Under the pieces are notes generated by a model. The model searched no databases. It was not told the origin of the DNA and saw only the letters and a list, made by a program, of their open reading frames with translations. From Eubacteriales bacterium (GTDB taxonomy: Bacteria; Bacillota; Clostridia; Lachnospirales; Lachnospiraceae): a stretch of DNA of 64,000 bases. This document shows, one piece after another, positions 3,783 to 54,558 of the stretch (positions are counted from its first letter, which is position 1; each line of letters begins with the position of its first letter). The position numbers and the translations under genes were made by a program. The stretch covers positions 1 to 64,000 of the forward strand of contig JAUNPK010000005.1 in NCBI GenBank assembly GCA_030536855.1, written 5' to 3'.

Positions 3783-3963
3783 ATAATTTTTCAGGCATCA
3801 TACACTTTGGTATATTTTTGTCATATTTTGGATGTTAAGATGGGAATAAGGAATGCGTGGTAATGGATATATATGGAGGAAGGAAGATTTGACAGGGAAA
3901 GCTGGCAGTCTTTTTTTCATTACACGAAATTTGATTATTATTACGTAAAAGAGGATGATGCTT

Positions 3964-9900: not shown

Positions 9901-12900
9901 GGAATATATGGTGGTAACGGATATTCCGGACAGAAGACAGGTCAGGATGGCAACCCTGAGAATGGCGGAAACGGAGGAGATGCTATTCAATTCACCGGGG
10001 CAGGAACTGCTGATATTGGCGAGGATGTTAATATAAAAGGTGGTAACGGTGGAAACTCAAATGGAGCTGATGCCGGAGATGGTGGCTGTGCAATTAAAGG
10101 TTCAGATGTAGATACTACTATAAAAGGCAGTGCTATCGGTGGAAACGGCGGAAACGGCGGATTGACCGGTGGTAATGGTGGAACTGCAATAGACGCAGGT
10201 GATGGAACCGTTGACTTTGGCGAGGAATGTAAGCTTGCCGGAGGAAACGGAGGAAGTGGTGATACAGGAGGAAATGGCGGTAATGCATTAGATTATAGTA
10301 ATCCGGATGCCGATGTTTCTATACCTGAAAATGCTGACGTATCAGGTGGTAAAGGTGGTACATCAGTAAATGGAAATACTGCTAAAGATGGCGAATCATC
10401 TGACAACACATTTAAGCCGGCAGGTGGTGTTATATCTAATCCTGTTACCCAGGAGAATCTGGATACAGTATTTGGCCCAGGGGTTGCAGAATATGATGAA
10501 GACACTAATACAATTAAATTAAACAAAGATGTTGAGTTAGGCGACACGGTTGTTCTGGATAATGATATCAATATTGACCTTAACGGACATACGCTTAAAG
10601 GAACTGACGGAACAACAGAAAGTCCGGATGCAAAGCCTGCATTAAAGGTAAATGGTGATACAGAAGTCACTATAACGGATTCTTCAGAAGATGGAAATGG
10701 TCAGGTTATTGGCGGAAACGGAGCTGATGTATCAAGCGAGGATGCAGCCGGAAATGGTGCTCCAGCCGTAGATATATCAGGAAATGGAACAGTAAACATT
10801 GATAAGGATGTGAATATTATTGGCGGTAATGGTGGCGATAATACTACCGGACCAGCCGGTAACGGAGGCTCTGCGGTTAATGTTTCCCCAGGTTCAAGCC
10901 TGAATGCAGATGGAGATATAACAGGCGGAGATGGTGGATACAGCAGTAAAGGTAATGGCGGAAATGGCGGAAGTGCAGTCAGTGGTTCCGGCGCCGATAT
11001 TAATATCAATGGCAATGCAACAGGCGGAGATGGCGGCAACAGCAACAATGCTGAGGCAGAAGCCGGAAAGGGAGGTAATGTTGTTGATGGAGATCAAACA
11101 AGCCTTAATATGAATGGTGGAGCTATACCTGGTAATGGCGGAACTAATAAGAAAGACAGTGATAATCCGGGAGCAGGAGGAGCTGTATCTGACGTTACAC
11201 CTGTTACATATAATGTTGTAACTGAACTTGAGAGACTGAATTATTCTGGTAATGATACGGTTGAACTTAACACTACATTTGAAGCTCAATTAATATCAGT
11301 ATTAGGAAACAACAGATATGCAAGTCTTCCAGACTCAATTGAGATTAAGATAAATAATGTTGAAACAGTTGTTGAGGTTATAGACAGAGCATTTGAATCA
11401 GAGGAAACATTTGAATATGTTGTATACAGTAAAACAGACGGCAGTATATATATTCCTGCAGCTTATGTAAAAGGAAGTATTTATATCAAGGCAAATCTGG
11501 TTGTTGTTACATCATGTACAGTTTCTACAGAGGAAGAGTTAAAGGATGCAGCTGATGCAGCTGTTGGTATTGTTACATTAGGAGATGATATTAGTATTAC
11601 AGATGAAATCAGCATACAGAACAATACAACTGTGGATGCGGGTGAATATGATATTACAGTTGAAGAGGGCAGAAAGCTGTCTAATGCCGGAAAGATAACA
11701 GGTACAGGAGATATTAATAACAAGGGTACTGTTGAGAATACCGGAAAGCTTAATCCTACAGTAAGAAATGAAGGAATAGTAAAGAATAGCGGAAACGGAG
11801 ATGTTGCTGATCTTATTGACCTTGGAGGAACTGTTGATAATACTGCAACTGTAAATGCAAGACATATAGCTGTATGGTATATTGCTAATAACGGAACAGA
11901 TGATATTCACGAAGAACTTATATCAGAAGGCGAAGGTTACGATGTATGGGTTAATACATTTAAGAATGGAACCAGATATTTCGTTGAGTGGAATACCAGA
12001 GAAGATGGTACAGGTGATAAATACGACCGTAAACAGATTGTAGCCGACGAAAATGTGGAATATATCGTACTTTATGCTATATGGTCAGAGGAAGATGCGG
12101 GAGCTAAAATCGGGGATACATATTATAAGGATCTCAAAGAGGCACTCGAATGGTCAGAAGAAGGTGACACAGTTGAATTAGAGAAGGATAGTGATGTCAC
12201 TGAAAATATAACTATACCGGATAATGTCACCGTCGATACAAAGGGCAATAATATAAATATTGCTGAGGATGTTGTATTAACTGTTGATGGTAAGTTAGAT
12301 GTAACAGAGAATGGAACTGTAACAAATAATGGTGTAGTAGATATTTCTGAGAGCGGCAGCGTTGAAAACGAGAGTGGAAGCATATTTAACAATAAGGGAA
12401 ATGTTAATAACGACGGAACTTTCAATAACAACGAAGGAAGCACATTAAACAATGAGTCCGGAGCAGAAATAGGCGGAGGCCAGCCGATAAGCAATGGCGG
12501 AGACATCAATAATGACGGAAATATCAAGACAACAGTGAAAAACACAGAAGACGGAAAAGTTGATGCAGAAGTCACATGGACAGACAAGGATGGAAACGAG
12601 CACAGCGGTTCATTAAAGGATGTACTTGAATATCTCAAGGAAAATCCGGAAGAAGCATCAGGAGCAAAGGTAGAGCTCAATGAGGATGTGGAAGTGACAG
12701 AACCGTTAGAAGTACCATCAGGAGTAGAATTAAGTGTACCTGATGACAAGAAGCTTAGCATAGGCGAGAACGGAAAGTTAAGCGTCGATGAAGGAGCAGA
12801 GTTGTCTGTAGAAGAGGGCGGCTCAGTAGAGGTAAAACCGGAAGGAACACTTGACAACAACGGAACAGTCAGTGTAGAGGAAGGCGGAAGTCTTGACAAC

Positions 12901-13833
12901 AACGGAACAGTAAACAATAACGAAGGCGGAAAGCTGGAGAACAGCGGAACCCTGAATAATAACAGCGAACTTAATAATAATGGAAATATTGTTAATACTT
13001 CATCAGGTGTTATTGCAGGTAAGGGAGATGTTGATAACGACGGAATAATCGGCAATGACGGAGATATAGCAGTCAGTGGTACAGTAACAGGTACAGAAAA
13101 AATGTCTGGATCAGGAAGCGTTACTGTGAACATGGATACAATCGTTATATCAAAGGATAATGATACATCAATTGAAAGCACAGTTAATGCTAAAGTTGGA
13201 AAAGGTGAAATAACAATTATTGTTGAATCAGTTGATAAGGATAACAATAAGTCAGATAACATCATATACGATGTAAAGATTGGAAGTGCATATGATTTCA
13301 TTAAGTCTGCAATTGGAACAAAGGGATTAGAGTCGCTTAAAGAAAGTGATAATATTTACCTTAAGTTCACAGTGGTTAAAATAGCTGATAAGGTGGAAAA
13401 GGAACAGGAGACACCGATTAAGGAAGTTGTTGACAGCAATTCAAATGCTGACAGCAAAATGGTAATTGGTGAATATGTTGATATTTCATATGAGATTAAG
13501 ACTAATAATGGAACATGGGAAAAATTAACAGAATTAAATAATGAAATTGAGGTTACAATCCAGATTCCTGAAGATATCAAAGGAAAGAGTACATATTTCA
13601 TTATTAGAAATCATGATGGTGTATGTGACATTTTGGAGGATATCGATGATAATCCGGATACAATAACATTTAAGACTGACAGATTCTCAACATATGCAAT
13701 TGCCTATGATGAACCGGTTGAATCAGTTAAGACAGGCGATAACAATGGTGCAGCAATGGCTCTGTATATGATAATGATGCTGATGGCTGCCGGATGTGCA
13801 GTATATGCTGGAAGAAAGAAGTTTTCCAGATAA
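3964..13833 (+). CDS. Giant multi-domain surface protein (~3,290 aa)
   Basis: Residue numbers count from ATG 3964, which has an AGAGG site 10 nt upstream; in-frame ATGs at 3955 and 3958 lie too close to it. Residues 1-35 are a signal peptide (cleavage after VLA). Residues ~170-365 resemble a C-type-lectin-like fold (FYQF..W.EA opening, GYYVEYG ending). Residues ~1120-1500 hold PKD/Ig-like beta domains. Residues ~1546-2400 hold three glycine-rich modules, each opened by a DLNGHT-type segment and followed by GGNGGDGG tracts. Residues ~2633-2710 look like an InlB B-repeat, and 2720-3045 are Asn-rich NNGTVNN repeats that suggest a beta-helix. The end (KTGD at 3256-3259, hydrophobic segment, RKKFSR) resembles a sortase signal without the Leu-Pro. 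It is probably a wall-attached adhesin or carbohydrate binder; the ligand is unknown. No sortase gene is in the window. Confidence 0.85.
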   Translation: MRTIAKLRLRKVVAGSLAIILVILGVFGYGVPVLANDDSGAYSVRQNSAGEPLTLGNQSRDAESGEYFYPDAVVDKDAVRSLIIAFKSSVSEGSKIILPENTANITLGNGTDTYKIINVASDTTSEDVQNYIRSVRFSLDASDESADLMIIVSDDEITGTVYYDSSNRHFYQFVSGSVTWKEAREKALNMSIGGRPGYLATVTSSHEDDFLGTVGSNQLGWLGGTRLVRSGSTFAYSSQTISETAAGTKGMYPWYWADGPEKNTQFLDRAAMSKKSYSSYSGFFADFNFDMDVLDVYSNNIGGGYQNFYFNSNNYQSCEPVNSANFTSSCLIRYNQTGSDSTRSCSWIARAYNATGNVSGYYVEYGDKVTGDTHESGDPDTVIVRLKQMTNVAKPYLSIDYINEEIIGFDSSSSYKIKVGESGEERIFSDMTSLVISGDWFGESLYVKACGDGIYTADSAVTEVAVPERHSAPVGLQGYNRTIYNVTSEMEYRRAANASSGAEAGEWKKITGDKVQKLLVGDYEVRYSATSSYFKSEPTTVYVEYYGADVSITTSRKVDVALSVGITGTAYNQFKEDLTNAIIAKSPSFDLNNLNIMSATSVNTSGQSSFSWMQFDHSYSPSIYNNNTYIENTNSAATQSDNAYNSKDYHIVSESNGTKLTFYGYGSSGYSDFMLLENDQQTNKKFEFAIKEYYAADALYGTGFFFNCNMNKGNYSTNAAAYNNSALKMSGYLAVIEYNGSSATGFSVYQFENLNLRNFHNTSTNNVNDALTSYSTSVTKIGSANISSSHDLRKFVIDVSPKKVKIYYAGFDDETHAVTNITSESQAQSFNTSSNGYKAFSSMKFSKSETDVTDTKYIGGNSSYLLMQINLPSTYGGSDFGPMTKYGAHGCSSLTKVEMSELSMSMDVVKSLSETLREPNWTDGADKFLVNLNEDPIEDFDNVSVTAELLNRLKNDDIYYIGWCGKDNSSKSYDFLQKNDLKGSVISVDSSDTATDSSGKKFYIGNYTAQINAIADCILGRYANSTSTGDIMLLSDVMFNKNIVIKKADSSDTADSEWPDGKWRIDYYNNYKAKDDDSAYVPETTWMSDFQCDFDKCGVYKIYYNYEEGDEPVKVISIHDAPIVTIDAAITTSNSTGTATLTALVDDTNQAAGKSYTYKWSYKNLGTASSPISNPAAVDVGTERTAGISDMTTGAVYIVTLEVTDDLFGYTVITSKQITYIASSQTQKTPPTAFFSLEQSNILMKSGQSAEVVITDSSYDPAGAAITGRTYKLYKVTGGVAEKTGTTITVTNGKYTVPASTVSGEYAIGLVVTSANGTSSEMKRNFNVVNDTTAPTVEFSIGKGTLTLDNSQTTMTFNDEGGSGYKGYKYYVSTSSETPTSGQWSVMSLGNEKTVTFPMMNGSYYVHYQIEDNAGNITTNYEGPFVRDQILNTPDNLAFAEGDSPVLTWNGDDRINDTDKASYTVTIYKNGKVFDEIKGLTDNKYIAANIVRGGDGTYSYTVQTLNSGNADASSDTVKYISGQISDMSPELVYVKPQESGVNGGNLNLDEGATQDKIDEVFQGHATLVSDAPLEIMLNSDINLKETLVISNNIIINLNGHTIKGPDGTKESPDGKPALEVASDNVKIILRGEGKVIGGNGYSDSEGGNGGDGGSGITFGDTEGGSLVTGEDTTVQGGEGGQSTEGVGGDGGSGVEGNDIDATIGGDLLGGDGGDGATKGGDGGSGIETTGDSNIKVKEDAEIGGGNGGDGSTGGNGGSGINSEGGSAEIESGSNIKGGAGGDGSTGDGGAGGNGVETTDSDVDNRGNVSGGDGGSSTGGSGGNGGNAYDTEGGNVNNYDGDTTGGNSGTDTGEGSQKPQDGQTNNSTGKANGGSINIPDISEDASEEEKQAWAENVKNQLDNAFGENNAGYDPENKKIILYNDVQLENPLEPVSDLTIDLNGHTLTGPDGTRENPDGQPAIKMPDGSNLKVENTSDKEGGIYGGNGYSGQKTGQDGNPENGGNGGDAIQFTGAGTADIGEDVNIKGGNGGNSNGADAGDGGCAIKGSDVDTTIKGSAIGGNGGNGGLTGGNGGTAIDAGDGTVDFGEECKLAGGNGGSGDTGGNGGNALDYSNPDADVSIPENADVSGGKGGTSVNGNTAKDGESSDNTFKPAGGVISNPVTQENLDTVFGPGVAEYDEDTNTIKLNKDVELGDTVVLDNDINIDLNGHTLKGTDGTTESPDAKPALKVNGDTEVTITDSSEDGNGQVIGGNGADVSSEDAAGNGAPAVDISGNGTVNIDKDVNIIGGNGGDNTTGPAGNGGSAVNVSPGSSLNADGDITGGDGGYSSKGNGGNGGSAVSGSGADININGNATGGDGGNSNNAEAEAGKGGNVVDGDQTSLNMNGGAIPGNGGTNKKDSDNPGAGGAVSDVTPVTYNVVTELERLNYSGNDTVELNTTFEAQLISVLGNNRYASLPDSIEIKINNVETVVEVIDRAFESEETFEYVVYSKTDGSIYIPAAYVKGSIYIKANLVVVTSCTVSTEEELKDAADAAVGIVTLGDDISITDEISIQNNTTVDAGEYDITVEEGRKLSNAGKITGTGDINNKGTVENTGKLNPTVRNEGIVKNSGNGDVADLIDLGGTVDNTATVNARHIAVWYIANNGTDDIHEELISEGEGYDVWVNTFKNGTRYFVEWNTREDGTGDKYDRKQIVADENVEYIVLYAIWSEEDAGAKIGDTYYKDLKEALEWSEEGDTVELEKDSDVTENITIPDNVTVDTKGNNINIAEDVVLTVDGKLDVTENGTVTNNGVVDISESGSVENESGSIFNNKGNVNNDGTFNNNEGSTLNNESGAEIGGGQPISNGGDINNDGNIKTTVKNTEDGKVDAEVTWTDKDGNEHSGSLKDVLEYLKENPEEASGAKVELNEDVEVTEPLEVPSGVELSVPDDKKLSIGENGKLSVDEGAELSVEEGGSVEVKPEGTLDNNGTVSVEEGGSLDNNGTVNNNEGGKLENSGTLNNNSELNNNGNIVNTSSGVIAGKGDVDNDGIIGNDGDIAVSGTVTGTEKMSGSGSVTVNMDTIVISKDNDTSIESTVNAKVGKGEITIIVESVDKDNNKSDNIIYDVKIGSAYDFIKSAIGTKGLESLKESDNIYLKFTVVKIADKVEKEQETPIKEVVDSNSNADSKMVIGEYVDISYEIKTNNGTWEKLTELNNEIEVTIQIPEDIKGKSTYFIIRNHDGVCDILEDIDDNPDTITFKTDRFSTYAIAYDEPVESVKTGDNNGAAMALYMIMMLMAAGCAVYAGRKKFSR
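8600..11160 (+). repeat. Three glycine-rich coding modules in the giant surface protein
   Basis: Three successive modules begin near 8600, 9640 and 10440. Each opens with a segment of the form DLNGHT-(L/I)-(T/K)-G-(P/T)-DGT-(R/K/T)-E-(N/S)-PD, then a GGNG-rich region of 150-250 residues with GGDGGSG-type tracts. At DNA level they are GGTGGAAATGG-like tracts. The modules have diverged, so they are old duplications rather than recent copies. Confidence 0.8.
12340..13090 (+). repeat. Asn/Gly-rich short repeats in the giant surface protein
   Basis: The coding sequence holds many short units built on (D/N)NNGTV, NNEGG, LENSG and VEEGGS, roughly 8-14 residues apart. This pattern is typical of right-handed beta-helix or stalk regions. 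It lies between the InlB-like repeat and the C-terminal anchor region. Confidence 0.7.
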
Positions 13834-14803: not shown

Positions 14804-14832
14804 TTCACAACATAAAAAGGTCGGTTCACAAC
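14804..14832 (+). promoter_or_regulatory. LytTR-type direct-repeat operator, copy 1
   Basis: Two TTCACAAC half-sites start 21 nt apart (14804 and 14825). Paired 8-10-nt direct repeats at ~21-nt spacing are the usual arrangement of LytTR-domain binding sites. The pair lies 33 nt upstream of a TATAAT -10 box and 71 nt before the start of a LytTR response-regulator gene, which fits autoregulation. A copy matching at 28 of 29 positions occurs at 17041. Confidence 0.7.
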
Positions 14833-14841
14833 ATCTTAGTA

Positions 14842-14870
14842 TCGAAAAGGGGTACAAGTTCCGATATAAT
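14842..14870 (+). promoter_or_regulatory. Promoter of the LytTR two-component operon
   Basis: A perfect TATAAT (14865-14870) is preceded at 17 nt by a poor -35 (TCGAAA). This is the pattern of an activator-dependent promoter and agrees with the LytTR half-sites just upstream. Confidence 0.55.
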
Positions 14871-14902
14871 AGCAGTATAAGAATTGCAAAGGGAGTGAGA
14901 AT

Positions 14903-15610
14903 GTGCGGATAGCGATATGCGATGATGAAAAGAACATTCGGGAGTTAATAGGGAATAAGGTGGCGAAGCAGTACCCGGAGGCAGATATTGTTTTCTTTCA
15001 GTCGGGGGAAGAACTGCTTTTATCAGATAAGCATGTAGATATTCTGTTTTTGGATATACAGATGTCCGGCAAAAGCGGTATGGAAACAGCCAGAGAACTT
15101 CGTAAGAAGAACAAAAGCGTGATACTTATTTTTGTGACTGCTGTAGAGGAGTATGTATTTCAAGCGTTTGATGTAGGTGCATTTAACTATATTGTGAAGC
15201 CGATTGATGATACAAAGTTTGTTGATGTACTTTGCAGAGCAGTTGATGAATGGCATTCACAGGATACGAATGTGAGGGAGCCGGAAGCAAATTATGTGAT
15301 GATCAATAATGGTGGGGTTCACACAAAGGTAATTATAGAAGATATTGTCTATGCAGAGGTGTTCAATCGTAAGGTGGTTATTCATAAGCTGGACGATGAA
15401 ATTGAGTATTATGGAAAAATGTCTGACCTTGAAGCAGTAGCAGGTGACAATTTTTTCAGACCGCACAGGGCATATCTTGTAAATTTTAAGTATGTGGAGA
15501 AATATGATGCCACCACCATTTATCTGGAAAAGGGAACTGCTCTTATGGCAAAGCAGAATTACCCGGACTTTGTAAAGAAATACATGAAGTACAATCAGAG
15601 GAAAGGGTAG
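14903..15610 (+). CDS. LytTR-family response regulator
   Basis: A 235-residue AgrA/LytR-type regulator. The receiver covers residues 1-120 (ICDDEKN near 4-10, phospho-acceptor D51 in LFLDIQMSG, K in YIVKPIDD), and the LytTR DNA-binding domain covers ~130-230 (VIIEDIVYAEVFNRKVVIH; FFRPHRAYLVNFKYVEKY). Translation most likely starts at GTG 14903 (MRIAICDDE) behind AAAGGGAG. It is followed directly by its GHKL sensor kinase. A 21-nt-spaced direct repeat stands in front of this gene, and a near-identical one precedes the gene cluster at 17175; both are likely its targets. The family often controls secreted peptides or surface functions. Confidence 0.9.
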   Translation: MRIAICDDEKNIRELIGNKVAKQYPEADIVFFQSGEELLLSDKHVDILFLDIQMSGKSGMETARELRKKNKSVILIFVTAVEEYVFQAFDVGAFNYIVKPIDDTKFVDVLCRAVDEWHSQDTNVREPEANYVMINNGGVHTKVIIEDIVYAEVFNRKVVIHKLDDEIEYYGKMSDLEAVAGDNFFRPHRAYLVNFKYVEKYDATTIYLEKGTALMAKQNYPDFVKKYMKYNQRKG

Positions 15611-15616
15611 TTGCTT

Positions 15617-16984
15617 ATGGAAAATATAGAAACTTATTGGGCAATAGCAAATAAAACAATAGCTATCATCAACATATTGATAGAAGGTTGGCTGGTTTAT
15701 CGGTTTGTAAAGCCATTTATAAATAGAAAATCATACTGCGTAGGAATTAGTTATTCATTGGCAATGCTTGTATTTTACCTTGTACCACAGGAGATGAATT
15801 ACCCGTATCTGTTGGGGATTTTTGTGGCTTGGATTACGATGTGTCTGACAGAGAGAAAAAAGATTAAGCAGAAAATCTTTTTAGCGATTTTCATGTACTT
15901 GATTCGTTGGATGGTTTATGGTGTGACATTGGTACTCAGGGATATTATGTTTGCTCTGTTTATTAACACACCATATATGCTTACGGAACCGATAAAACAA
16001 TTGATAGCATATATCGTTGTGGAGCTGATTTATTACAGTGTTGCCATAATTGTAATGTGGTTTGTAATTAAGCTGATTCATAAGGTGTATGTGAATAAAA
16101 AAGAGGATATATCAGGGAAAGAATTGATATTACTTTTTGCAACTCTTTTGACGGTAATGGTAGGATATTTTACATTTAATTTCTTTTCCAATGTGTATGT
16201 GGAAGATACGGGAAATTATGTGTGGAATGTTCATCCGGGATACACTTTTTTACGGGTGATATATCAGATTGTTTCTTTTGCTGCTATACTTATCGCAGTG
16301 ATTATATATCAGAGGATAAAGGAAAAACAGCGAGAGGAAAATGTGAATTTGCTATTGGTAGAGCAGATAGAAAACACGAAACAGCACATCAGTGAAGTAG
16401 AAAAGCTATACGGAGATATTCGGGCATTAAAGCATGATATGGGCAATCATATCACGGTATTAGAAAATCTATATTTAAAGAAAGAAACAACAGAGATTGA
16501 AAAGTATCTGGCAGAACTGAAATCGGCATGGAGTGAGAGTGTGGCAGAAATTAAGACCGGAAATCCTGTTACTGATGTGATCTTGACGCAGAAGCAGAAA
16601 GAAGCAGAGGAAAAAGGAATTGATTTCAGGTGTAAGTTTATGTATCCAACGGACACAGGTATCAATGCGTTTGATGTCAGCGTAATACTAAATAATGCCA
16701 TTACCAATGCGTTTGAAGGGATAAATGGTTGTAAGAATCCTTATGTTTCCATATCTGCCTATCGTAAGAAAAATGCGTATATGCTGGAGTTGACGAACTG
16801 TATCAGTAAAAGAGTAGAAATAGATGATGAAACCGGATTGCCGGAAACCACAAAGAAAGATAAGGGCAGTCATGGATTTGGACTTGCCAATATCCGTAAA
16901 GTGGCTCAGAAATATTATGGAGACATAGATATAAGTCAGGATGAAAATAGCTTTACATTGACGGTTATGTTAATGGTTGAATAA
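15617..16984 (+). CDS. AgrC-like GHKL sensor histidine kinase
   Basis: A 455-residue kinase with six or seven hydrophobic helices in residues 1-230, a coiled linker, then the phospho-acceptor H273 in LKHDMGNHITVLENLY. The GHKL ATPase follows (NNAITNAFEGI as N box; GSHGFGLANIRKVAQKY as G2 box). ATG 15617 is preferred, with GAAAGGG at 15600-15605; a TTG at 15611 is the other option. It begins just after the LytTR regulator gene and a terminator follows, so the two form a bicistronic operon. The membrane sensor half resembles peptide-sensing kinases of the AgrC class. No signal-peptide precursor gene is visible nearby. Confidence 0.9.
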   Translation: MENIETYWAIANKTIAIINILIEGWLVYRFVKPFINRKSYCVGISYSLAMLVFYLVPQEMNYPYLLGIFVAWITMCLTERKKIKQKIFLAIFMYLIRWMVYGVTLVLRDIMFALFINTPYMLTEPIKQLIAYIVVELIYYSVAIIVMWFVIKLIHKVYVNKKEDISGKELILLFATLLTVMVGYFTFNFFSNVYVEDTGNYVWNVHPGYTFLRVIYQIVSFAAILIAVIIYQRIKEKQREENVNLLLVEQIENTKQHISEVEKLYGDIRALKHDMGNHITVLENLYLKKETTEIEKYLAELKSAWSESVAEIKTGNPVTDVILTQKQKEAEEKGIDFRCKFMYPTDTGINAFDVSVILNNAITNAFEGINGCKNPYVSISAYRKKNAYMLELTNCISKRVEIDDETGLPETTKKDKGSHGFGLANIRKVAQKYYGDIDISQDENSFTLTVMLMVE

Positions 16985-16993
16985 GAAATAAGG

Positions 16994-17038
16994 GACACAA
17001 TTCTGTACGAATGGGTATGGATTGTGTCTTTTATTTTT
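16994..17038 (+). terminator. Terminator after the GHKL kinase
   Basis: GACACAAT (16994-17001) pairs with ATTGTGTC (17021-17028), followed by a T-rich run. It separates the two-component operon from the operator and cluster starting at 17041. Confidence 0.8.
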
Positions 17039-17040
17039 GG

Positions 17041-17069
17041 TTCACAACATAAAAAGGTCGTTTCACAAC
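17041..17069 (+). promoter_or_regulatory. LytTR-type direct-repeat operator, copy 2
   Basis: TTCACAAC half-sites at 17041 and 17062 are again 21 nt apart. The 29-nt block matches copy 1 (14804) at 28 of 29 positions, spacer included. It lies 106 nt before the first gene of the FlxA/FliD-like cluster, so the LytTR regulator probably controls that cluster. Confidence 0.7.
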
Positions 17070-17174
17070 AAGTCTATTTAGTATGAAGTTTTATATTCCG
17101 AAATAGGAAATAGCAGAAGTATCTGTGTATAGAGAAACGGATTTCTAATCAATATTTCAAGGAGGATGATGCGG

Positions 17175-18125
17175 ATGGCAGTAAAGGGAATCAGAAGTAA
17201 TTTCCTGTACCCGGTACAAAATGATTACAAGCCTGATTCAAAAACAGAGGACACTAAAAATGCTGTTTCCCAGACTGCGGTACAGAAGGAAGGAGTAAGT
17301 TACGAAAAGACAATACCGGATTCTGTATCAGCAGGACTTGAGTATATTCAAGGGTTGGAAAAGCAAATTAGTGGAACAAAGTTTTTTGTAGGCACAGTCA
17401 GTTATGGACAGACTTATGGCAATTCATCAAATGTTAATTTTGTTGTAAATCCTAAATTCTTAGGTAAGCTAGGAACGGATGAGGCGATAAAGAAACAATT
17501 TGAAGAAGATGTTAAGTTTTTAAATGATTTTTCTAGGAGATTTAGACAGCAGCAACTTGCCCAAGGACGAGAAATGATTAGTCAAGGGTGGTTCTGTGAT
17601 GAAAATGGTAATTGGGGTGGCTGGGGAGTCAGCAGACCTATAAAGCAAAGTACAGTATTACAGGATATGACAGATAATGCCGAGAAAATCCGGCAGGAGA
17701 AACTTGAGGAGCGAAAAAAAGTAGAAGCAGAGCTGAAAGAGCATTTTGGTGAGTGTTTCAAAGGATTTCATGTGAAATGGTCGGAGGAGGATGCAAAGGC
17801 GGAAGAAACAGAGGAATCGGAAATTGCGGAGGACGCTGAGAAAGAGAGCGAGACCATAGGTGGTAGTGTTGGTGTAAATGTCGGCAAGACTGCAAGAAAG
17901 ATTGCTGCGGCAAAGACTACAAGCCAGTTACAGGCGGTCATAGCTGAAATAAAAGGCGATATGCAGGAATTAAAAGCAGGCATTGAAAAAGGCTTGTGCG
18001 ATGAGTCGGAAATGGAAAAAGTAAATTCTTTAATGGCTCAGGCACAGAACCGGATGGGACAGGTGGAAGATAGAGAAGCAACACCGGAAGAAGAGAATAT
18101 GTTTGCAATGGCTTCACTTATGTAG
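17175..18125 (+). CDS. DUF6033-like protein of unknown function
   Basis: A 316-residue soluble protein without signal peptide or membrane segment. Residues 1-20 are a short lead-in (MAVKGIRSNFLYPVQNDY). Residues ~50-105 are a compact domain (SAGLEYIQGLEKQISGTKFF; GNSSNVNFVVNPKFL), and then come charged helices, an acidic region (AEETEESEIAEDAEKESE) and a C-terminal helical part. ATG 17175 lies 9 nt behind AAGGAGG; two earlier in-frame ATGs overlap that site. I recall the arrangement as the DUF6033 family found beside FlxA-like genes in Lachnospiraceae, from memory and unsearched. It is first in a three-gene operon behind a LytTR operator. Function unknown. Confidence 0.65.
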   Translation: MAVKGIRSNFLYPVQNDYKPDSKTEDTKNAVSQTAVQKEGVSYEKTIPDSVSAGLEYIQGLEKQISGTKFFVGTVSYGQTYGNSSNVNFVVNPKFLGKLGTDEAIKKQFEEDVKFLNDFSRRFRQQQLAQGREMISQGWFCDENGNWGGWGVSRPIKQSTVLQDMTDNAEKIRQEKLEERKKVEAELKEHFGECFKGFHVKWSEEDAKAEETEESEIAEDAEKESETIGGSVGVNVGKTARKIAAAKTTSQLQAVIAEIKGDMQELKAGIEKGLCDESEMEKVNSLMAQAQNRMGQVEDREATPEEENMFAMASLM

Positions 18126-18145
18126 ATAACAGGAGGTAATAGGAT

Positions 18146-18958
18146 ATGAGAATTAACGGTTTAAATGGAGCAAATACACCTGCGGGTGGAATGAATATGA
18201 CGAAGGCAACAGATTCTGTCAGCAAGAATATTCAGAACCAGATTGCTAATGCTCAGAAACAGTTGCAGGAGCTTTCTGACAATAAGGACATGAGCATTGA
18301 AGAAAAAATGAAGAAACAACAGGAAATACAGCAGCAGATTACGGATTTGAAAAATCAGTTAAGACAGCATCAGATTGAACAGAGGAAAGAACAGCAGGCA
18401 AAGAAATCTTCAATGGATGATATGCTTGGTGGCAGTAAGAAAACTGCTCCGAAAGCTGGAAAGCAAAGTACAGGTCTGTCACAGGCAAGTATGAAGGCTA
18501 TGATTTCTGCTGATTCCGCAATGGCTCAGGCACAGGTACAGGGCAGTGTTGCTACAAAGATGGAAGGCAGAGCCGGGGTGCTGGAGTCTGAAATCAAGTT
18601 GGATTCAGCTCGTGGTGATGATGTAGAGGCGAAGAAAGAGGAACTTGCAGAAGTAGAGCAGAAAGCTGTTCAAGCAGAATCAGCACAAATGAATACATTG
18701 GCTACTGCGAATAAGGAATTGGAAGAAGCTGCGAAAGCAGATCAGCAGACTGAAAAAGCAGATGATAAAGATAAGAAAACAGATAAGAAGGATGCTGTTG
18801 CTGGTGAAAAAGATGATAAGACTGTGGCAGGCACAGAAGAAACCGAGAATGTGGGCGCTGATGTTAAGAACGAAACAGTTAGTACGGATATAGCAGAGCC
18901 GGTAGAGGTATCTATACCGGAAACAGTTGCATATACCCATGTAGATGTGCGTTTATAG
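18146..18958 (+). CDS. FlxA-like helical protein
   Basis: A 270-residue hydrophilic protein. Residues ~20-90 form a coiled coil with Gln-rich heptads (NAQKQLQELSDNKDMSIEEK, then QQQITDLKNQLRQHQIEQRK) matching the FlxA-like family, named after an E. coli flagellar-regulon gene of unknown function. Residues ~110-190 contain alanine-rich helices, and ~195-250 are a Lys/Asp/Glu-rich linker. The last residues (ETVAYTHVDVRL) are conserved-looking. ATG 18146 follows AGGAGGT. It lies 20 nt after the DUF6033-like gene and 12 nt before the FliD-like gene. No flagellar structural genes are in the window, so a non-flagellar role, perhaps in secretion or surface structures, is possible. Confidence 0.7.
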   Translation: MRINGLNGANTPAGGMNMTKATDSVSKNIQNQIANAQKQLQELSDNKDMSIEEKMKKQQEIQQQITDLKNQLRQHQIEQRKEQQAKKSSMDDMLGGSKKTAPKAGKQSTGLSQASMKAMISADSAMAQAQVQGSVATKMEGRAGVLESEIKLDSARGDDVEAKKEELAEVEQKAVQAESAQMNTLATANKELEEAAKADQQTEKADDKDKKTDKKDAVAGEKDDKTVAGTEETENVGADVKNETVSTDIAEPVEVSIPETVAYTHVDVRL

Positions 18959-18970
18959 GAGGTGCTTACT

Positions 18971-19707
18971 ATGTCAGAGATAAATAGTTTTAGTGATTAT
19001 GCAAGCAAATATAACACCAATGTAGATTATGCCTATTTGTTTGGAGGTATGCAGACACCGTCAACAGGCAGTGCTTTTAATCTTTCTGACTATGCGGCGA
19101 TCAAAAATGGCAGTTATGGAAAATTGCTGAAGGCATATTATGCAAAGCAGGATGCAGAAAAGGCATCTTCCGGTGGAGATACTGTACAGAAATCTACACT
19201 TATGAAGTCAGGAGCGGATGCACTAAAGAAATCAGCAGATGCTTTAAATAATGATGAACTCTGGGAAAAGAAGAAAATCAAGAAAAAGGATGAAAAGACC
19301 GTGAAGATTATGATTGGGAAGCTATCACAAAGGCTGTGAAATCATTTGTAGAAGATTACAATGATGTTGTGGAACAGGCAGGTGATTCCAGTTCAAAAGA
19401 TGTTTTAAGAAATGCTGTGTGGATGACAGGAATTACTGAGTCTAATGAGAATATGCTTTCAAAAATCGGTGTTACTGTAGGAAAGGGAAATAAGTTGGAG
19501 CTGGACGAGGAAGCACTTAAAAAGGCAGACATCAGTTCATTCAAAACACTTTTTACCGGACATAATTCTTTTGCAGATAAAGTATCCATGAAAGCAAGCA
19601 GTATTTCCCATGCGGCGGCACGCTCAAGCGGAACTTATAAGAGTAATGGTACATATAACAATGCTTTATCGGAGCTTGTATCGAAGAAGGTAGATGAGGA
19701 AGTGTAG
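18971..19707 (+). pseudogene. FliD-C-like protein, interrupted by a frameshift
   Basis: Two overlapping frames form one gene. The first (ATG 18971, stop 19339) starts MSEINSFSDYASKYNTNVDY. The second continues from about 19303 as EDYDWEAITKAVKSFVEDYN to the stop at 19707. Its C-terminus (LRNAVWMTGITESNENML, then SKIGVTVGKGNKLELDEEAL and SSFKTLFTGHNSFADKV) resembles the C-terminal region of the flagellar cap protein FliD. One base missing near 19300-19303 explains the shift; programmed frameshifting or sequencing error cannot be excluded. RBS GGAGGT supports ATG 18971. It is the last gene of the operon under the second LytTR operator. Confidence 0.7.
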
Positions 19708-19967: not shown

Positions 19968-21287
19968 ATGTTGAAAAGAAAAATTGAACAGAAACTTATA
20001 GATTGGAAAAATGCTAAGGAGCATAAACCCTTGATTATCAAAGGTTGCAGACAATGTGGAAAGACTTTCTCTGTATTGGAATTTGCTAAGAATAATTACA
20101 AGAATGTTGTGTATTTAAATTTCTTTGAAAATCCGGACTATGCTTCAGTATTTTCAGGCTCACTAGAAATTGACAACATTATTATGATGCTTTCAGCATT
20201 GTTAGGAAAAGGTGCAGTATTTGAAGCGGGAGAAACCGTTCTTATTCTTGACGAGATCCAGGAGTGTCCGGAGGCAAGAACCGCACTTAAGTTTTTTCAA
20301 ATGGATGGTCGCTTTGATGTGATAGGTACCGGTTCATTGTTAGGGGTAAAGGGATATGGAAAAGAACCTAGATCTGTTCCGGTAGGATATGAGACAGTGA
20401 TCGATATGTATCCATTAGATTTTGAGGAATTTCTTTGGGCAAATGATATTGGAGAACCAATAATAAATATGTTAAGAAAGTGTCTGGAAGAGGCAAAACC
20501 TGTTCAGGAGGCGATTCATAACAAAATGAGGCAGCTTTTATTGCAATATACGGTTGTAGGTGGTATGCCTGATGTTGTACAAACCTTTGTTAATACGAAG
20601 CAAATGAATGATGTTCTTAGTATTCAGCGTGATATTATTCGATCATATGAGGACGATATGGTGAAATATGCTGAAAAAGCAGATAAATTCAGAATCAAAG
20701 AATGTTTTCAGTCTATTCCAAAGCAATTAAGTAAGGAGAATAAAAAGTTTCAATATGCTGTCATTAAAAAAGGTTCTACAGCATCAAAATACATGGGAAG
20801 TCTCCAATGGATAGAAGATGCAGGGATTATATCTAGGTGTTATAATTTATCTATTACCGAATTACCTTTGGATGGTAATGCAATAGAAGATGTTTTTAAG
20901 GTATACATGAAAGATTGTGGATTGTTTATCAGTATGCTGGAGGACGGCACACAGTATGATATTTTGCAGGGGAAACTGTATGGATATAAGGGGGCTATTT
21001 TTGAAAATTTAATAGCAGATATCTTTTCTAAAATGGGACGTAAATTATATTACTACCATAAAGATTCCGGTTTGGAAATCGACTTTGTTATGAGATATAA
21101 GGGTGAGTGTACGTTGGTAGAAGTAAAAGCAACAAATGGTAATACCAAGAGTACAAGAACGATTTTAAATCATCCGGAAAAGTATCATGTTAAAAGTGCG
21201 ATAAAATTAGGTGATTATAATGTGGGTAATGAGAATCAGATTCTTACATTGCCGTTGTATATGGCATTTTTGTTAGATAAGATGTGA
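19968..21287 (+). CDS. AAA_14/DUF4143 ATPase, copy 1
   Basis: A 439-residue cytosolic ATPase. Residues 1-150 form an AAA_14 P-loop domain (Walker A GCRQCGKT at 26-33; Walker B TVLILDEIQECPEAR near 85-98; sensor GTGSLLGVKG). The middle is helical, and the C-terminal DUF4143 half holds a PD-(D/E)XK-like core (SGLEIDFVMRYKGECTLVEV followed by K, near residues 365-385). Proteins of this type are common in gut Firmicutes and Bacteroidetes, often in several copies; their substrate is not established, and nuclease or toxin/defence roles have been suggested from the fold. AAGGAG precedes ATG 19968. It is first in an island with two more related ATPases and a fragment. Confidence 0.85.
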   Translation: MLKRKIEQKLIDWKNAKEHKPLIIKGCRQCGKTFSVLEFAKNNYKNVVYLNFFENPDYASVFSGSLEIDNIIMMLSALLGKGAVFEAGETVLILDEIQECPEARTALKFFQMDGRFDVIGTGSLLGVKGYGKEPRSVPVGYETVIDMYPLDFEEFLWANDIGEPIINMLRKCLEEAKPVQEAIHNKMRQLLLQYTVVGGMPDVVQTFVNTKQMNDVLSIQRDIIRSYEDDMVKYAEKADKFRIKECFQSIPKQLSKENKKFQYAVIKKGSTASKYMGSLQWIEDAGIISRCYNLSITELPLDGNAIEDVFKVYMKDCGLFISMLEDGTQYDILQGKLYGYKGAIFENLIADIFSKMGRKLYYYHKDSGLEIDFVMRYKGECTLVEVKATNGNTKSTRTILNHPEKYHVKSAIKLGDYNVGNENQILTLPLYMAFLLDKM

Positions 21288-21331
21288 TTGATGTGGGAGA
21301 AGTGGATTAGCAGATTTTTTTGTTTTTTTGT

Positions 21332-21410
21332 AAAAACGGGGCAAAAACTATGAATTAAAACCTGAAAAACGGGGCAAAATTCTATAAAAACAATTGCAAA
21401 AACGGGGCAA
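21332..21410 (+). repeat. Three 13-nt repeats at exact 33-nt period
   Basis: AAAAACGGGGCAA occurs at 21332, 21365 and 21398, each exactly 33 nt apart. The 20-nt spacers differ. The period equals 11 codons or about three helical turns. The block lies between ATPase copies 1 and 2. No further copy fits the 33-nt phase on either side. Confidence 0.85.
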
Positions 21411-21455
21411 TATTATAGATTATGCAAATATTATGCAAAGTTTGCAGAATGTATG

Positions 21456-21500
21456 GACCACTTTCAAGTGTAGACTTGGGAGTGGTCTTTTTGCTTTTGT
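21456..21500 (+). terminator. Terminator upstream of ATPase copy 2
   Basis: GACCACT (21456-21462) pairs with AGTGGTC (21481-21487), followed by a T-rich stretch. It ends transcription crossing the 33-nt repeats. Confidence 0.7.
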
Positions 21501-21506
21501 GGGTTA

Positions 21507-21605
21507 CAAAAATCTTCCCTAATTTGGAAAGATGCGTTGAGAAATACAAAAAAATATGATATTATAGGACTGAAAAATGTAACTAGTTGCAAAAATCTTC
21601 CCTAA
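21507..21605 (+). promoter_or_regulatory. Promoter bracketed by two identical 16-nt repeats
   Basis: CAAAAATCTTCCCTAA occurs at 21507-21522 and 21590-21605, 83 nt apart. Between them lies a good promoter, TTGAGA (21537-21542), 17-nt spacer, TATTAT (21560-21565). The second copy ends at the ribosome-binding site of ATPase copy 2. This looks like an operator pair, possibly for autorepression; that is inference. Confidence 0.6.
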
Positions 21606-21619
21606 AGGAGTGCATAGCT

Positions 21620-22915
21620 ATGGAGATAAAACGTGACTATTATTTGAACAAACTTATAAAAAGGCAAAATAATGGATTAGTAAAGGTCATAACAGGTATA
21701 AGAAGATGTGGTAAATCGTATTTGTTAAATACACTCTTTTATAATTATTTGATAGAGAGTGGTGTTGATAAAGAACATATTATCCGTTTTGCATTTGATT
21801 CCGCAGATGATATTCATCTTATAGGGGAGAGTCTGATTAGTGTTGAGAAAGAAAAAAGAGGCGTAAATCCGGAGTTGTTTATGGAGTATATTCGCTCTCA
21901 AACATCTGGTGAAGGGAAATATTATTTGCTCTTAGATGAGGTACAGTTACTTGATTGTTTTGAATCTGTTCTGAATGGGTACTTGCGTAAGGATAATATG
22001 GATGTATATGTCACCGGAAGTAATGCAAAGTTTTTGTCCAAAGATATTATCACTGAGTTTGCCGGACGTGGTGATGAAATTCATATGTATCCATTAAGTT
22101 TCGCGGAATTCATGTCTGTATATAAGGGTGATAAGTACGAAGGACTGTCAGAGTACATGCTTTATGGTGGAATACCGCTCGTAGTTCTACGAGAGGGAGC
22201 AAATGAAAAAGCAGCAGTATTGCAGAATCTGTTTGATGAAATCTATATTACAGATATTTTCAAGAGAAATAGAGTAAAGAATCAAGGGGAGCTAGAAGAT
22301 TTGCTGAATATTCTTTCTTCTGCGATAGGTTCGCTAACTAATCCGGAGAAATTAAAAAATACATTTAAGACGGTCAAAAAATCAAGTATTACAGCAAAGA
22401 CCATAAAAAAATATTTGGATTATTTTGAAGATTCTTTTTTGATAGAGTCTGCACAGAGATATGATATTAAAGGAAAGGCATATATCGAAACACCAAAGAA
22501 ATACTATTTTTCCGATTTAGGACTTCGTAATGCTCGAATAAATTTCCGACAGTTTGAGCAGACACATTCGATGGAAAATGTGATTTATAACGAGCTTCGC
22601 ATGCGTGGGTATAGTGTGGATGTAGGTGTGGTGCCTATTGCAGAGAAGGATAAAGATGGAAAAGTGGTTCGAAAAGCTTTGGAAGTAGATTTTGTTTGTA
22701 ATCTTGGATCTGCAAGATGTTATATTCAGTCGGCTTATTCGCTTCCTGATGAAGCAAAGAGAAATCAAGAGATACGGCCATTTAGGAAAATAGATGATTC
22801 TTTCAAGAAAATTGTGGTGACCAAAGATATAGTTCCAACACACTACGATGAGAACGGAATTTTAACAGTGAACATTTATGAGTTCTTGCTTAATCCGGGA
22901 AGTATTGAAGGCTAG
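21620..22915 (+). CDS. AAA_14/DUF4143 ATPase, copy 2
   Basis: A 431-residue ATPase of the same superfamily as its neighbours but a different subgroup. Walker A is GIRRCGKS (26-33), Walker B YLLLDEVQLLDCFE, and the sensor segment VTGSNAKFLSKDI is followed by the FAGRGDEIHMYPLSFAEF block typical of the group. The C-terminal DUF4143 part has ALEVDFVCNLGSARCYIQSA, with E, D and Q in place of the classical nuclease E-x-K. ATG 21620 (MEIKRDYYLNKL) is chosen because AAAGGAG stands 9 nt before it; the TTG at 21587 would lie inside the upstream repeat. Its promoter is bracketed by identical 16-nt repeats. Confidence 0.85.
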   Translation: MEIKRDYYLNKLIKRQNNGLVKVITGIRRCGKSYLLNTLFYNYLIESGVDKEHIIRFAFDSADDIHLIGESLISVEKEKRGVNPELFMEYIRSQTSGEGKYYLLLDEVQLLDCFESVLNGYLRKDNMDVYVTGSNAKFLSKDIITEFAGRGDEIHMYPLSFAEFMSVYKGDKYEGLSEYMLYGGIPLVVLREGANEKAAVLQNLFDEIYITDIFKRNRVKNQGELEDLLNILSSAIGSLTNPEKLKNTFKTVKKSSITAKTIKKYLDYFEDSFLIESAQRYDIKGKAYIETPKKYYFSDLGLRNARINFRQFEQTHSMENVIYNELRMRGYSVDVGVVPIAEKDKDGKVVRKALEVDFVCNLGSARCYIQSAYSLPDEAKRNQEIRPFRKIDDSFKKIVVTKDIVPTHYDENGILTVNIYEFLLNPGSIEG

Positions 22916-23084
22916 TGTCAATCACGCTTAAATTTTGTACATTTTTCACGCAAAAAAATGTACAGGTAATCCGTTCATGATTTTAAGTTCTGTTCCTGTG
23001 AATCCTGTGCAGTTGATGGAGGACATGTGTATTTACGCAGGTGTGGTAATCCACTTTTCTTGACTGCTACAAAGAAAAGAAAAT

Positions 23085-23165
23085 GAATGGGGATTTGAGA
23101 GAAAATAAGAACAATACGAACAGGGATTTGAGTGAAAATTAGATTTACATGAATGGGGATTTGAG
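23085..23165 (+). repeat. Three 15-nt repeats at exact 33-nt period before ATPase copy 3
   Basis: GAATGGGGATTTGAG (23085), GAACAGGGATTTGAG (23118) and GAATGGGGATTTGAG (23151) are 33 nt apart; units 1 and 2 also resemble each other in their 18-nt tails. The phase is coding-compatible: an upstream frame from ATG 23083 reads MNGDLRENKNNTNRDLSEN and stops at 23142. The third copy ends 31 nt before ATG 23197. Confidence 0.85.
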
Positions 23166-23196
23166 TTATACTTCTGGTAGAAAGTTGGAGTTATAC

Positions 23197-24537
23197 ATGG
23201 ATAAGCCGGTTTTTAAAAGAAAAATATATGACGAAATACTTGAGTGGAAAGAGAATAGAAGTGATAAATACGCTCTTTTGATAAAGGGTGCAAGACGAGT
23301 TGGAAAATCAACTATTGCAGAGGAATTTGCAAAAAAGGAGTTTAGATCATATATTATAATTGATTTTGCTCATACCAGTAAGGAAATTATTGATTTATTT
23401 GATGATACGCATGACTTAAACTTTTTCTTTTTGCAATTACAGCAGTTAACGGGAACTAGATTGTATGAGAATGAGTCTGTAATCATTTTTGATGAAGTTC
23501 AGTTGCTTCAAAAGGCTAGACAGGCAATTAAATATCTCGTTGCGGATGGAAGATATAAGTATATTGAAACGGGTTCTTTATTATCCATAAAAAAGAATAC
23601 AAAGGATATTTTAATCCCTAGCGAAGAACACAAAATATCAATGTTCCCTATGGATTTTGAGGAATTTTTGTGGGCAATAGGAGATGAGATATCAGCTGAA
23701 ACAATTAAGCATCTCTTAAAGAATAAAAAGCCTGCAGGGAATGCAATGCATAGAAACTTGATGCGTATATTTAGATTGTACATGCTTATTGGTGGAATGC
23801 CACAAGCCATAGAAACATATATAGAGAAAAACAATTTGCAATTGGTTGATGAAGCTAAAAGAGAGATTGTAGATTTGTATGAAGAGGATTTTGTGAAGAT
23901 AGATGGAACTGGTCTTGCAGGTGATATTTATGATGCAATACCTGTTAATCTTAGTGGCAATGCATCAAGATACATTTTGTCGAGTGCAAGAGAGGGGATT
24001 CGTTCTCAGCAGGTAAGAGAGTTGATTCCGGATATGCTCAGTTCGTATACTGTAAATATTGCATATCATGCTAATAATCCTGGCGTAGGAATGGCATTAG
24101 AAAAGGATGCAGGACGGTATAAATTGTTTACTTCTGATGTAGGTCTATTTATCACATTAGCATTTAAGGATAAAAACTACACGGAGAATATTATTTATAA
24201 TAAGTTACTTTCGGATAAGTTGGATGCAAACTTAGGATACGTATATGAAAATGTAGTGGCTCAGATGCTAATAGCTAAAGGTAATAATTTGTTTTATTAC
24301 ACGATGGAAAGTGAAACCTCAAATCATTTGTATGAGATTAATTTTTTGACTTCGGTTGGGAATAAGATATGTCCACTCGAGGTGAAATCAGGCAGCTATA
24401 GAACGCATAAATCACTTGATGCATTTTGCGACAAGTTTAGTAATCGTATACGTTACAAATATGTTGTTCATACAAAGGATTACAAATGGGAAAACGGAAT
24501 TCATTATATTCCAGTGTATATGGTGCCGTTTTTATAA
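23197..24537 (+). CDS. AAA_14/DUF4143 ATPase, copy 3
   Basis: A 446-residue ATPase close in layout to copy 1: Walker A GARRVGKS (31-38), Walker B SVIIFDEVQLLQKARQ, sensor ETGSLLSIKK, the FPMDFEEFLWAIGDE block, and a C-terminal PD-(D/E)XK-like core (YEINFLTSVGNKICPLEVKS), here with the E-x-K kept. ATG 23197 has GGAG 6 nt upstream and gives the family-like start MDKPVFKRKIYDE; the ATG at 23149 lies in the 33-nt repeat. It is the last complete ATPase of the island, followed by a C-terminal fragment of another. Confidence 0.85.
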   Translation: MDKPVFKRKIYDEILEWKENRSDKYALLIKGARRVGKSTIAEEFAKKEFRSYIIIDFAHTSKEIIDLFDDTHDLNFFFLQLQQLTGTRLYENESVIIFDEVQLLQKARQAIKYLVADGRYKYIETGSLLSIKKNTKDILIPSEEHKISMFPMDFEEFLWAIGDEISAETIKHLLKNKKPAGNAMHRNLMRIFRLYMLIGGMPQAIETYIEKNNLQLVDEAKREIVDLYEEDFVKIDGTGLAGDIYDAIPVNLSGNASRYILSSAREGIRSQQVRELIPDMLSSYTVNIAYHANNPGVGMALEKDAGRYKLFTSDVGLFITLAFKDKNYTENIIYNKLLSDKLDANLGYVYENVVAQMLIAKGNNLFYYTMESETSNHLYEINFLTSVGNKICPLEVKSGSYRTHKSLDAFCDKFSNRIRYKYVVHTKDYKWENGIHYIPVYMVPFL

Positions 24538-53139: not shown

Positions 53140-53293
53140 ATATGGCTGATAATAATGGTTTACAGGTTTTATTCCGTTATAGTAGTAAAATCAATATAAA
53201 ATACATTGAAATGAGAAAAATACGAATATATATGTTGATTTTATGCAAAAACTGTATATACTAGAAAGTAGAAAAGAAGGTGAGGTAGCAATC

Positions 53294-54556: not shown

Positions 54557-54558
54557 GT

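Follow-up and report, generated by a model that had tools for sequence, protein, structure and literature searches.

A predicted LytTR regulon of flagellum-associated gene families in Lachnospiraceae

Introduction

What does a LytTR two-component system control when it stands in front of genes that resemble flagellar proteins, in a stretch of DNA where no flagellum is encoded? The question is raised by positions 14,804 to 19,707 of a 64,000-nucleotide (nt) stretch of a Lachnospiraceae genome (contig JAUNPK010000005.1 of assembly GCA_030536855.1), the whole of which we call the window. A 29-nt block, TTCACAAC-N13-TTCACAAC, occurs there twice. Genes for a LytTR response regulator and then a GHKL kinase occupy the space between the copies; 3′ of the second copy are genes for DUF6033-like and FlxA-like proteins, then two overlapping open reading frames (ORFs) with similarity to FliD_C (Table 1). 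An earlier note on this DNA had assigned both copies to one regulon and suggested that the cluster, lacking a flagellum, may build or regulate an undescribed surface or secreted structure. By comparing relatives, we find that the arrangement very probably constitutes one conserved, autoregulated LytTR regulon with predicted regulator binding, and it is just as highly likely that the operon's products are associated with the flagellum. The reading that we favour, with moderate confidence, is that an AgrC/LytTR-type system co-activates, together with sigma-28, a set of accessory flagellum-associated proteins that are perhaps exported. It builds on the wiring, the promoter geometry and the near-confinement to flagellated genomes seen in the comparison, and from these it predicts binding, activation, sigma-28 use and export.

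Results

The two block copies, starting at 14804 and 17041, are the same at 28 of 29 positions, and in both the half-sites start 21 nt apart, just as the earlier note had described. The 13 base pairs (bp) between the half-sites fit the 11–13 bp spacing of LytTR direct repeats. The signal resides in the pair rather than in the lone TTCACAAC, because the 7 single half-sites in the window (2.37 expected) are also reached by 1 of 100 shuffles; single half-sites were dropped as a mark of the regulon on this count. Across the whole source genome (2,395,757 bases in 54 contigs, 99% complete, labelled G000 in the genome comparison), the exact pair is found at the two cluster positions only. Allowing up to two mismatches adds two further pairs, which look like chance because a reversed control pattern yields 8 at the same threshold.

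The pair recurs in relatives. A scan of named genomes with a FlxA-like profile, which may not cover records of the source genome or of one very close to it, supplied 80 loci, the best 80 of 241 relatives; one of them (L140) has no FlxA-like ORF in its gene map. Sites were counted where the regulator (score of at least 330) or the kinase (at least 300) was found upstream, with near-identical loci retained. With at most two mismatches, the pair lies 5′ of the regulator gene in 34 of 49 scorable loci (exact in 13/49) and between the kinase gene and the operon in 39 of 55 (exact in 19/55), and elsewhere in the 1.18 Mb of these loci there are 14 more sites. Scrambled controls (the reversed pattern and three permutations) gave 0/49 and 0/55 at 0, 1 and 2 mismatches, with 1 match elsewhere in total. 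The earlier note would have been undone by a block that was absent or unconserved beside the same genes; instead, the paired site is conserved near this gene set in Lachnospiraceae, and its occurrence at the same two positions in many of them is good support for a single regulon.

Gene order, spacer, promoter, cysteine and C-terminal tail analyses used 59 non-redundant entries, the window included. The spacer is also kept, roughly as TTCACAAC-A-n-AAAAAGG-n-CG-n-TTCACAAC at the operon. Of the 43 non-redundant loci whose upstream DNA is long enough, 34 have the regulator and kinase genes 5′ of the FlxA-like gene and in its orientation. The FlxA-like gene is followed by a FliD_C-like gene in 27 of 53 loci, and 20 of 59 have a DUF6033-type gene no more than 4 kb away. 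Among the best 80 of 241, the closest named locus comes from a water-buffalo rectum metagenome bin, with a FlxA-like protein 95% identical to that of the window.

We also searched 299 genomes of the family, drawn so that every genus but one is represented once, a draw that reduces shared ancestry without removing it. The exact pair occurs in 7 of them, beside the same gene set in 5 (G000, G013, G165, G214 and G285), and on this ground we rejected the block as a general repeat. The other two pairs, in G048 (inside a kinase-like gene) and G355, belong to genomes outside the list of those with the flagellar gene FlhA (FlhA+) and look like chance; the reversed pattern gives 2 matches in 2 of the 299.

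Both members of the two-component system have Pfam matches. The regulator matches Response_reg (2.2e-18, 66.9 bits; cut-off 30.2) and LytTR (7.2e-15, 55.4 bits; cut-off 22.6). The kinase combines a GHKL ATPase domain (PF14501, HATPase_c_5; 1.1e-23, 83.6 bits) with a multi-pass sensor part of 7 hydrophobic segments by hydropathy, as expected of an AgrC-like kinase. No linked peptide precursor gene is evident in the ORF listing, which has a minimum of 60 amino acids (aa); shorter ORFs were not searched. A second two-component pair (His_kinase, Response_reg) lies at window 1687–3782, about 11 kb upstream of the cluster.

The distance from the paired site to a putative promoter element is nearly fixed. 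In 28 non-redundant operon promoters, an NCGA motif lies 28 nt after the second half-site in 26 and 27 nt after it in 2; regulator promoters have it at 27–29 nt in 21 of 24 cases. At offsets 24–32, [CA]CGA is present in 24/28 operon promoters (shuffle mean 2.04, maximum 6 of 200 shuffles) and in 20/24 regulator promoters (mean 1.59, maximum 5). These elements are of the MCGATA-like form of a sigma-28 −10: CCGATAT is matched at 5–7 of 7 positions in 48 of the 49 NCGA promoters. For comparison, 16 of 19 flagellin promoters of the same group match TAAAG/TTAAG-N15-CCGATAT at no fewer than 4 of the 5 and 6 of the 7 positions. They agree with the published Lachnospiraceae sigma-28 promoters in the relevant parts of a Eubacterium/Roseburia paper, TAAA-N16-17-MCGATAa for Butyrivibrio and TAAA-N15-CCGATAT in general (PMC3720852).

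The operon and regulator promoters differ at the −35 position. Operon −35 elements average 3.50 of 5 matches to sigma-28 (2.36 in shuffles), while their 2.57 of 6 matches to sigma-70 is the chance level (2.65), and TATAAT is matched at 5/6 positions in 4 of 28 and at 6/6 in none. A sigma-28 −35 with 4–5 of 5 matches at flagellin spacing is found in 14/28 operon promoters and 0/21 regulator promoters. At the regulator gene, the CCGATATAAT-like elements suit both sigma factors, and the −35 leans slightly toward sigma-70 (3.10 vs 2.59 in shuffles; 2.52 vs 2.23 for sigma-28).

The source genome carries flagellar genes. The statement that the window holds no flagellar structural gene stands: when 41 of the 44 window ORFs that reach 150 aa were compared with Pfam (the other three being antisense ORFs, and the two FliD_C-like parts being the only shorter ORFs included), no flagellar families turned up outside the cluster. 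The wider claim, that the cluster exists without a flagellum, falls, because other contigs carry FlhA (G000:C16:4454-6409), FliA (C16:14824-15486; 262 bits, cut-off 189.6), a full FliD with FliD_N and FliD_C (C20, L203:8738-10870), which is the genome's sole FliD_N match, FlgK (also on C20) and four flagellin_N matches, of which the three with a listed position fall on C20 (two) and C1 (one).

The operon's families are nearly confined to such genomes. FlhA itself is present in 155 of the 299. FlxA-like proteins (E ≤ 1e-10) occur in 34/299, all 34 of them FlhA+ (hypergeometric 2.8e-11), although some of these matches are partial (e.g. positions 106–262 only). FliD_C-like proteins occur in 107/299, 106 of them FlhA+ (the exception is G299; hypergeometric 4.2e-41), and most listed matches lie away from FlxA-like loci. 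A small Cas9 control gave 6/10 FlhA+. DUF6033 is present in 36 of 116 relatives, 17 of the 36 in the window's own genus, and all 36 are FlhA+ (85/116 overall). A sigma-28-like match (6 or more of 7 and 4 or more of 5 positions) stands within 500 bp upstream in 19 of 30 DUF6033 loci, the distance being measured from where the family match starts rather than from the gene start; the background in these loci is 0.12 per 500 bp. The source genome's second DUF6033 gene (L083) is among the 19; L034, which sits in a cluster of the same kind, is among the 30 and outside the 19.

The gene identities given earlier hold by Pfam for the regulator, kinase, DUF6033-like, FlxA-like and FliD_C-like genes, with the correction that the last is not intact. 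The DUF6033-like match is partial (positions 38–160 of 205; 28.5 bits, cut-off 25), and the FlxA-like match is strong (PF14282, 2.5e-17, 63.3 bits; cut-off 26.3). The two FliD_C-like ORFs correspond to parts of one gene of about 250 aa in relatives; in the window a short stretch and the frame have been lost, and the FliD_C match (4.5e-7) sits in the second ORF. Consequently, the operon may be only partly functional in the source strain. A single FliD_C-like ORF of at least 220 aa is present at 39 loci; at L127 the first 54 residues only are matched. The source genome also has an intact orphan paralogue (G000:C54, L199:8133-8891), whose neighbours do not look flagellar. A flagellar cap protein joins FliD_N and FliD_C in one chain, whereas the window gene has part of FliD_C only, and its family matches PF07195 in 33 of 36 members and lacks FliD_N. 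The family's match to the solved B-type HAP2 structure 5fhy is weak (E 0.022), its profile does not significantly match the source genome's FliD by hhalign (probability 9.9), and the DUF6033 and FlxA-like profiles gave 0 matches to solved structures.

Two traits recur among these protein families. FlxA-like (49/62) and FliD_C-like (18/24) proteins are mostly free of cysteine, against 6/214 other ORFs of matched size; 6/15 DUF6033-type proteins also lack it. A 19-residue segment scoring above 1.6 (Kyte-Doolittle) is absent from the FlxA-like, FliD_C-like, DUF6033-type and window-type DUF6033-like proteins. Cysteine depletion without a strongly hydrophobic segment would suit a flagellar export substrate, though this is only suggestive. 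The second trait is a C-terminal pentapeptide of the form hydrophobic-Asp-hydrophobic-x-hydrophobic, which ends 56/61 FlxA-like and 13/17 DUF6033-type proteins, including the source genome's second DUF6033 protein, and neither the regulator (0/55) nor the kinase (0/52). It ends 19 of 576 unassigned ORFs, which on reading the list are mostly further small proteins of the same kind.

Related arrangements were noticed at three loci. A third exact block lies at L087:16636-16664 and L088:10678-10706; the L087 copy stands 5′ of a further operon whose small proteins are unassigned and in some cases carry the C-terminal tail. At L068:347-7422 (G285:C1) there is a paralogous module with genes of the kinase-like, DUF6033-type and weakly FliD_C-like kinds; it has an exact paired site of its own, along with a distant LytTR-type regulator. 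Separately, a 104-aa protein directly 3′ of fliA and fapA on the source genome's flagellar contig (L084:17250-17564) ends in the tail DFDVKI and has no Pfam or NCBIfam match.

Table 1. Features of the cluster in window coordinates.
Feature	Position	Strand	Basis
Paired LytTR-type site, copy 1 (5′ of regulator gene)	14804..14832	+	Pair, motif counts, recurrence in relatives
Putative regulator −10, CCGATATAAT	14861..14870	+	Inferred from conserved position and flagellin promoters; fits sigma-70 (TATAAT) and sigma-28 (CCGATAT)
LytTR response regulator, GTG start	14903..15610	+	Pfam Response_reg and LytTR; alignment with 10 relatives
AgrC-type GHKL sensor kinase	15611..16984	+	Pfam HATPase_c_5; hydropathy
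Paired LytTR-type site, copy 2 (5′ of operon)	17041..17069	+	Pair, motif counts, recurrence in relatives
Putative sigma-28-like operon promoter: weak −35 TTTAG, 16 nt, −10 CCGAAAT	17077..17104	+	Inference
DUF6033-like protein, 319 aa	17166..18125	+	PF19498 1.7e-6; 8 relatives 64–94% identical
FlxA-like protein, 270 aa, cysteine-free, C-terminus YTHVDVRL	18146..18958	+	PF14282; alignment; tail
FliD_C-like gene, interrupted: ORFs 18962–19339 and 19336–19707, different frames	18962..19707	+	ORF list, Pfam, relatives

Other genes surround the cluster. It adjoins a gene (window 3955–13833) whose 3,292-aa product has no Pfam match; this protein contains Gly-rich repeats, has a hydrophobic stretch at the C-terminus and probably belongs to the cell surface. 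Downstream are three consecutive AAA_14/DUF4143 ATPase genes (window 19968–24537). Farther on, AAA_21 and RloB genes adjoin each other (window 53243–55200) and resemble a restriction-linked defence pair.

Discussion

We propose the following mechanism. The AgrC-like kinase would phosphorylate the LytTR regulator, which would then bind the paired TTCACAAC half-sites 5′ of its own gene, giving positive autoregulation, and also the paired TTCACAAC 5′ of the downstream operon. Because that site lies upstream of a sigma-28-like −10 at a constant 28 nt, and the −35 is poor, the operon promoter may act as an AND gate that requires both an active flagellar sigma factor and a triggered sensor. The DUF6033-like, FlxA-like and FliD_C-like proteins, with extra paralogues in relatives, would be accessory flagellum-associated proteins, most likely soluble, poor in cysteine, and docked to the flagellar apparatus or exported by it. 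We consider it probable that the operon promoter uses sigma-28, and export of the products we place a little below an even chance.

Several observations weigh against this proposal, and some of them feed other explanations. At the threshold used, 15 of 49 regulator positions and 16 of 55 operon positions lack the site. TATAAT is complete (6/6) in 15 of 21 regulator promoters, where sigma-70 fits at least equally well. Scored with a sigma-28 matrix built from 15 of the 16 matching flagellin promoters, the operon promoters have a median of 5.7 and the regulator promoters 2.7, far under the flagellins (16.9–20.9), even though 16/28 and 11/24, respectively, exceed the 95th percentile of shuffles. 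We read the low scores as a possible sign of activator dependence; they are also the main weakness of the sigma-28 claim. It is possible, though we doubt it, that LytTR activates ordinary sigma-70 promoters in both places, with CCGA as an extended −10 feature and the products as the sole link to the flagellum. Such an arrangement has a parallel in the LytTR repeats that parts of a study place 4–11 bp upstream of the −35 in Streptococcus mutans, and often at 10 bp in other species (PMC6193735), but it leaves unexplained operon promoters that lack TATAAT and whose −35 elements are closer to sigma-28 than to sigma-70.

As for the products, the window-type DUF6033-like family retains its cysteines (0/7 cysteine-free), and the tail is absent from the FliD_C-like (0/33) and window-type DUF6033-like (0/8) proteins as well as from the source genome's flagellins, FlgK and FliD. 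Beside these, only one flagellin_N protein of that genome, FlgL-like and ending in LDFLG, passes the loose tail pattern, and we dropped the tail as a universal export tag. The same regulon might instead make cytoplasmic modulators of the flagellum (e.g. brake, placement or assembly factors) that are never exported. This is rather unlikely, but it would suit proteins that show neither a strongly hydrophobic segment nor anything like a signal peptide, and a tail that is missing from the flagellins, FlgK and FliD, yet present on the small protein beside fapA and fliA; cysteine depletion and similarity to FliD_C (33/36) lean toward exported, axial-type proteins. The FliD_C-like gene is also broken at L091, L098, L103 (by an in-frame stop), L134 and L155, each time differently from the window. 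Together with the patchy presence of FlxA-like proteins (34/299) and the intact orphan FliD_C-like paralogue, these breaks would accord with a decaying or fast-turning accessory cassette that has little current function in the source strain. We regard that as improbable, since sites, spacing, kinase and regulator are kept over distant relatives and the FliD_C-like gene is a single ORF at 39 loci, and some of the breaks may stem from faulty assembly of metagenome bins. The undescribed surface or secreted structure of the earlier note, independent of flagella, drew on the window's lack of a flagellar structural gene among its scanned ORFs; with flagellar genes elsewhere in the genome and the operon's families almost only in FlhA+ genomes, it is now highly improbable.

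The proposal of sigma-28 and LytTR co-activation suggests a concrete role in flagellated Lachnospiraceae for three uncharacterised families (FlxA-like, DUF6033 and small FliD_C-like proteins), and promoters built for joint action of a LytTR activator and the flagellar sigma factor. A broader version, which we offer as speculation that is less likely to hold, is that in motile gut Lachnospiraceae a LytTR system of the cell-density type serves as a second key over sigma-28, gating by signal a flagellar accessory secretome not yet described; its proteins would be flagellum-exported or flagellum-docked, many of them sharing the C-terminal tail. Human gut cells are reported to respond to stimulation by the flagellins of related commensals (PMC3720852), and signal-controlled flagellar add-ons could therefore matter for gut ecology.

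In open-licence PMC full texts we found no mention of DUF6033 or 'FlxA-like', and the open-licence PMC titles and abstract openings that combine LytTR, flagellar and Lachnospiraceae do not concern such a system. Within that literature, the regulator and kinase are of a known kind, and the regulon content, promoter design and tail appear to be undescribed.

The closest relatives in design are the Agr/Vir/Blp-type LytTR-GHKL systems, such as Staphylococcus aureus AgrAC and Clostridium perfringens VirRS. The cluster shares with them a multi-pass GHKL kinase paired with a LytTR regulator, paired direct repeats and a site 5′ of the regulator's own gene; it differs in that no linked peptide gene was recognised (among ORFs of at least 60 aa) and in its output, flagellum-associated proteins predicted to lie behind sigma-28-like promoters. 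Escherichia coli FlxA shares the family name and a promoter tabulated as TAAAG-N15-CCGATAGT; the likeness is one of name and promoter, and the genes described here are tied to a LytTR system and to an operon with DUF6033-like and FliD_C-like genes. With the FliD (HAP2) cap, the FliD_C-like family, with proteins of about 250 aa, has part of FliD_C in common, without FliD_N. The LytTR Regulatory Systems of S. mutans are, in the parts of the study that describe them, a precedent for site spacing and positive autoregulation, with direct repeats 11–13 bp apart just upstream of the −35; they pair the LytTR protein with a membrane inhibitor, whereas the cluster here pairs it with a kinase (PMC6193735). 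Clostridioides difficile agr provides a precedent for LytTR control of flagellar genes: according to parts of the published account, loss of the LytTR regulator AgrA lowers flagellar gene transcripts across most of the flagellar regulon (PMC3754575), whereas the system described here would act at two accessory-gene promoters (three sites in L087 and L088).

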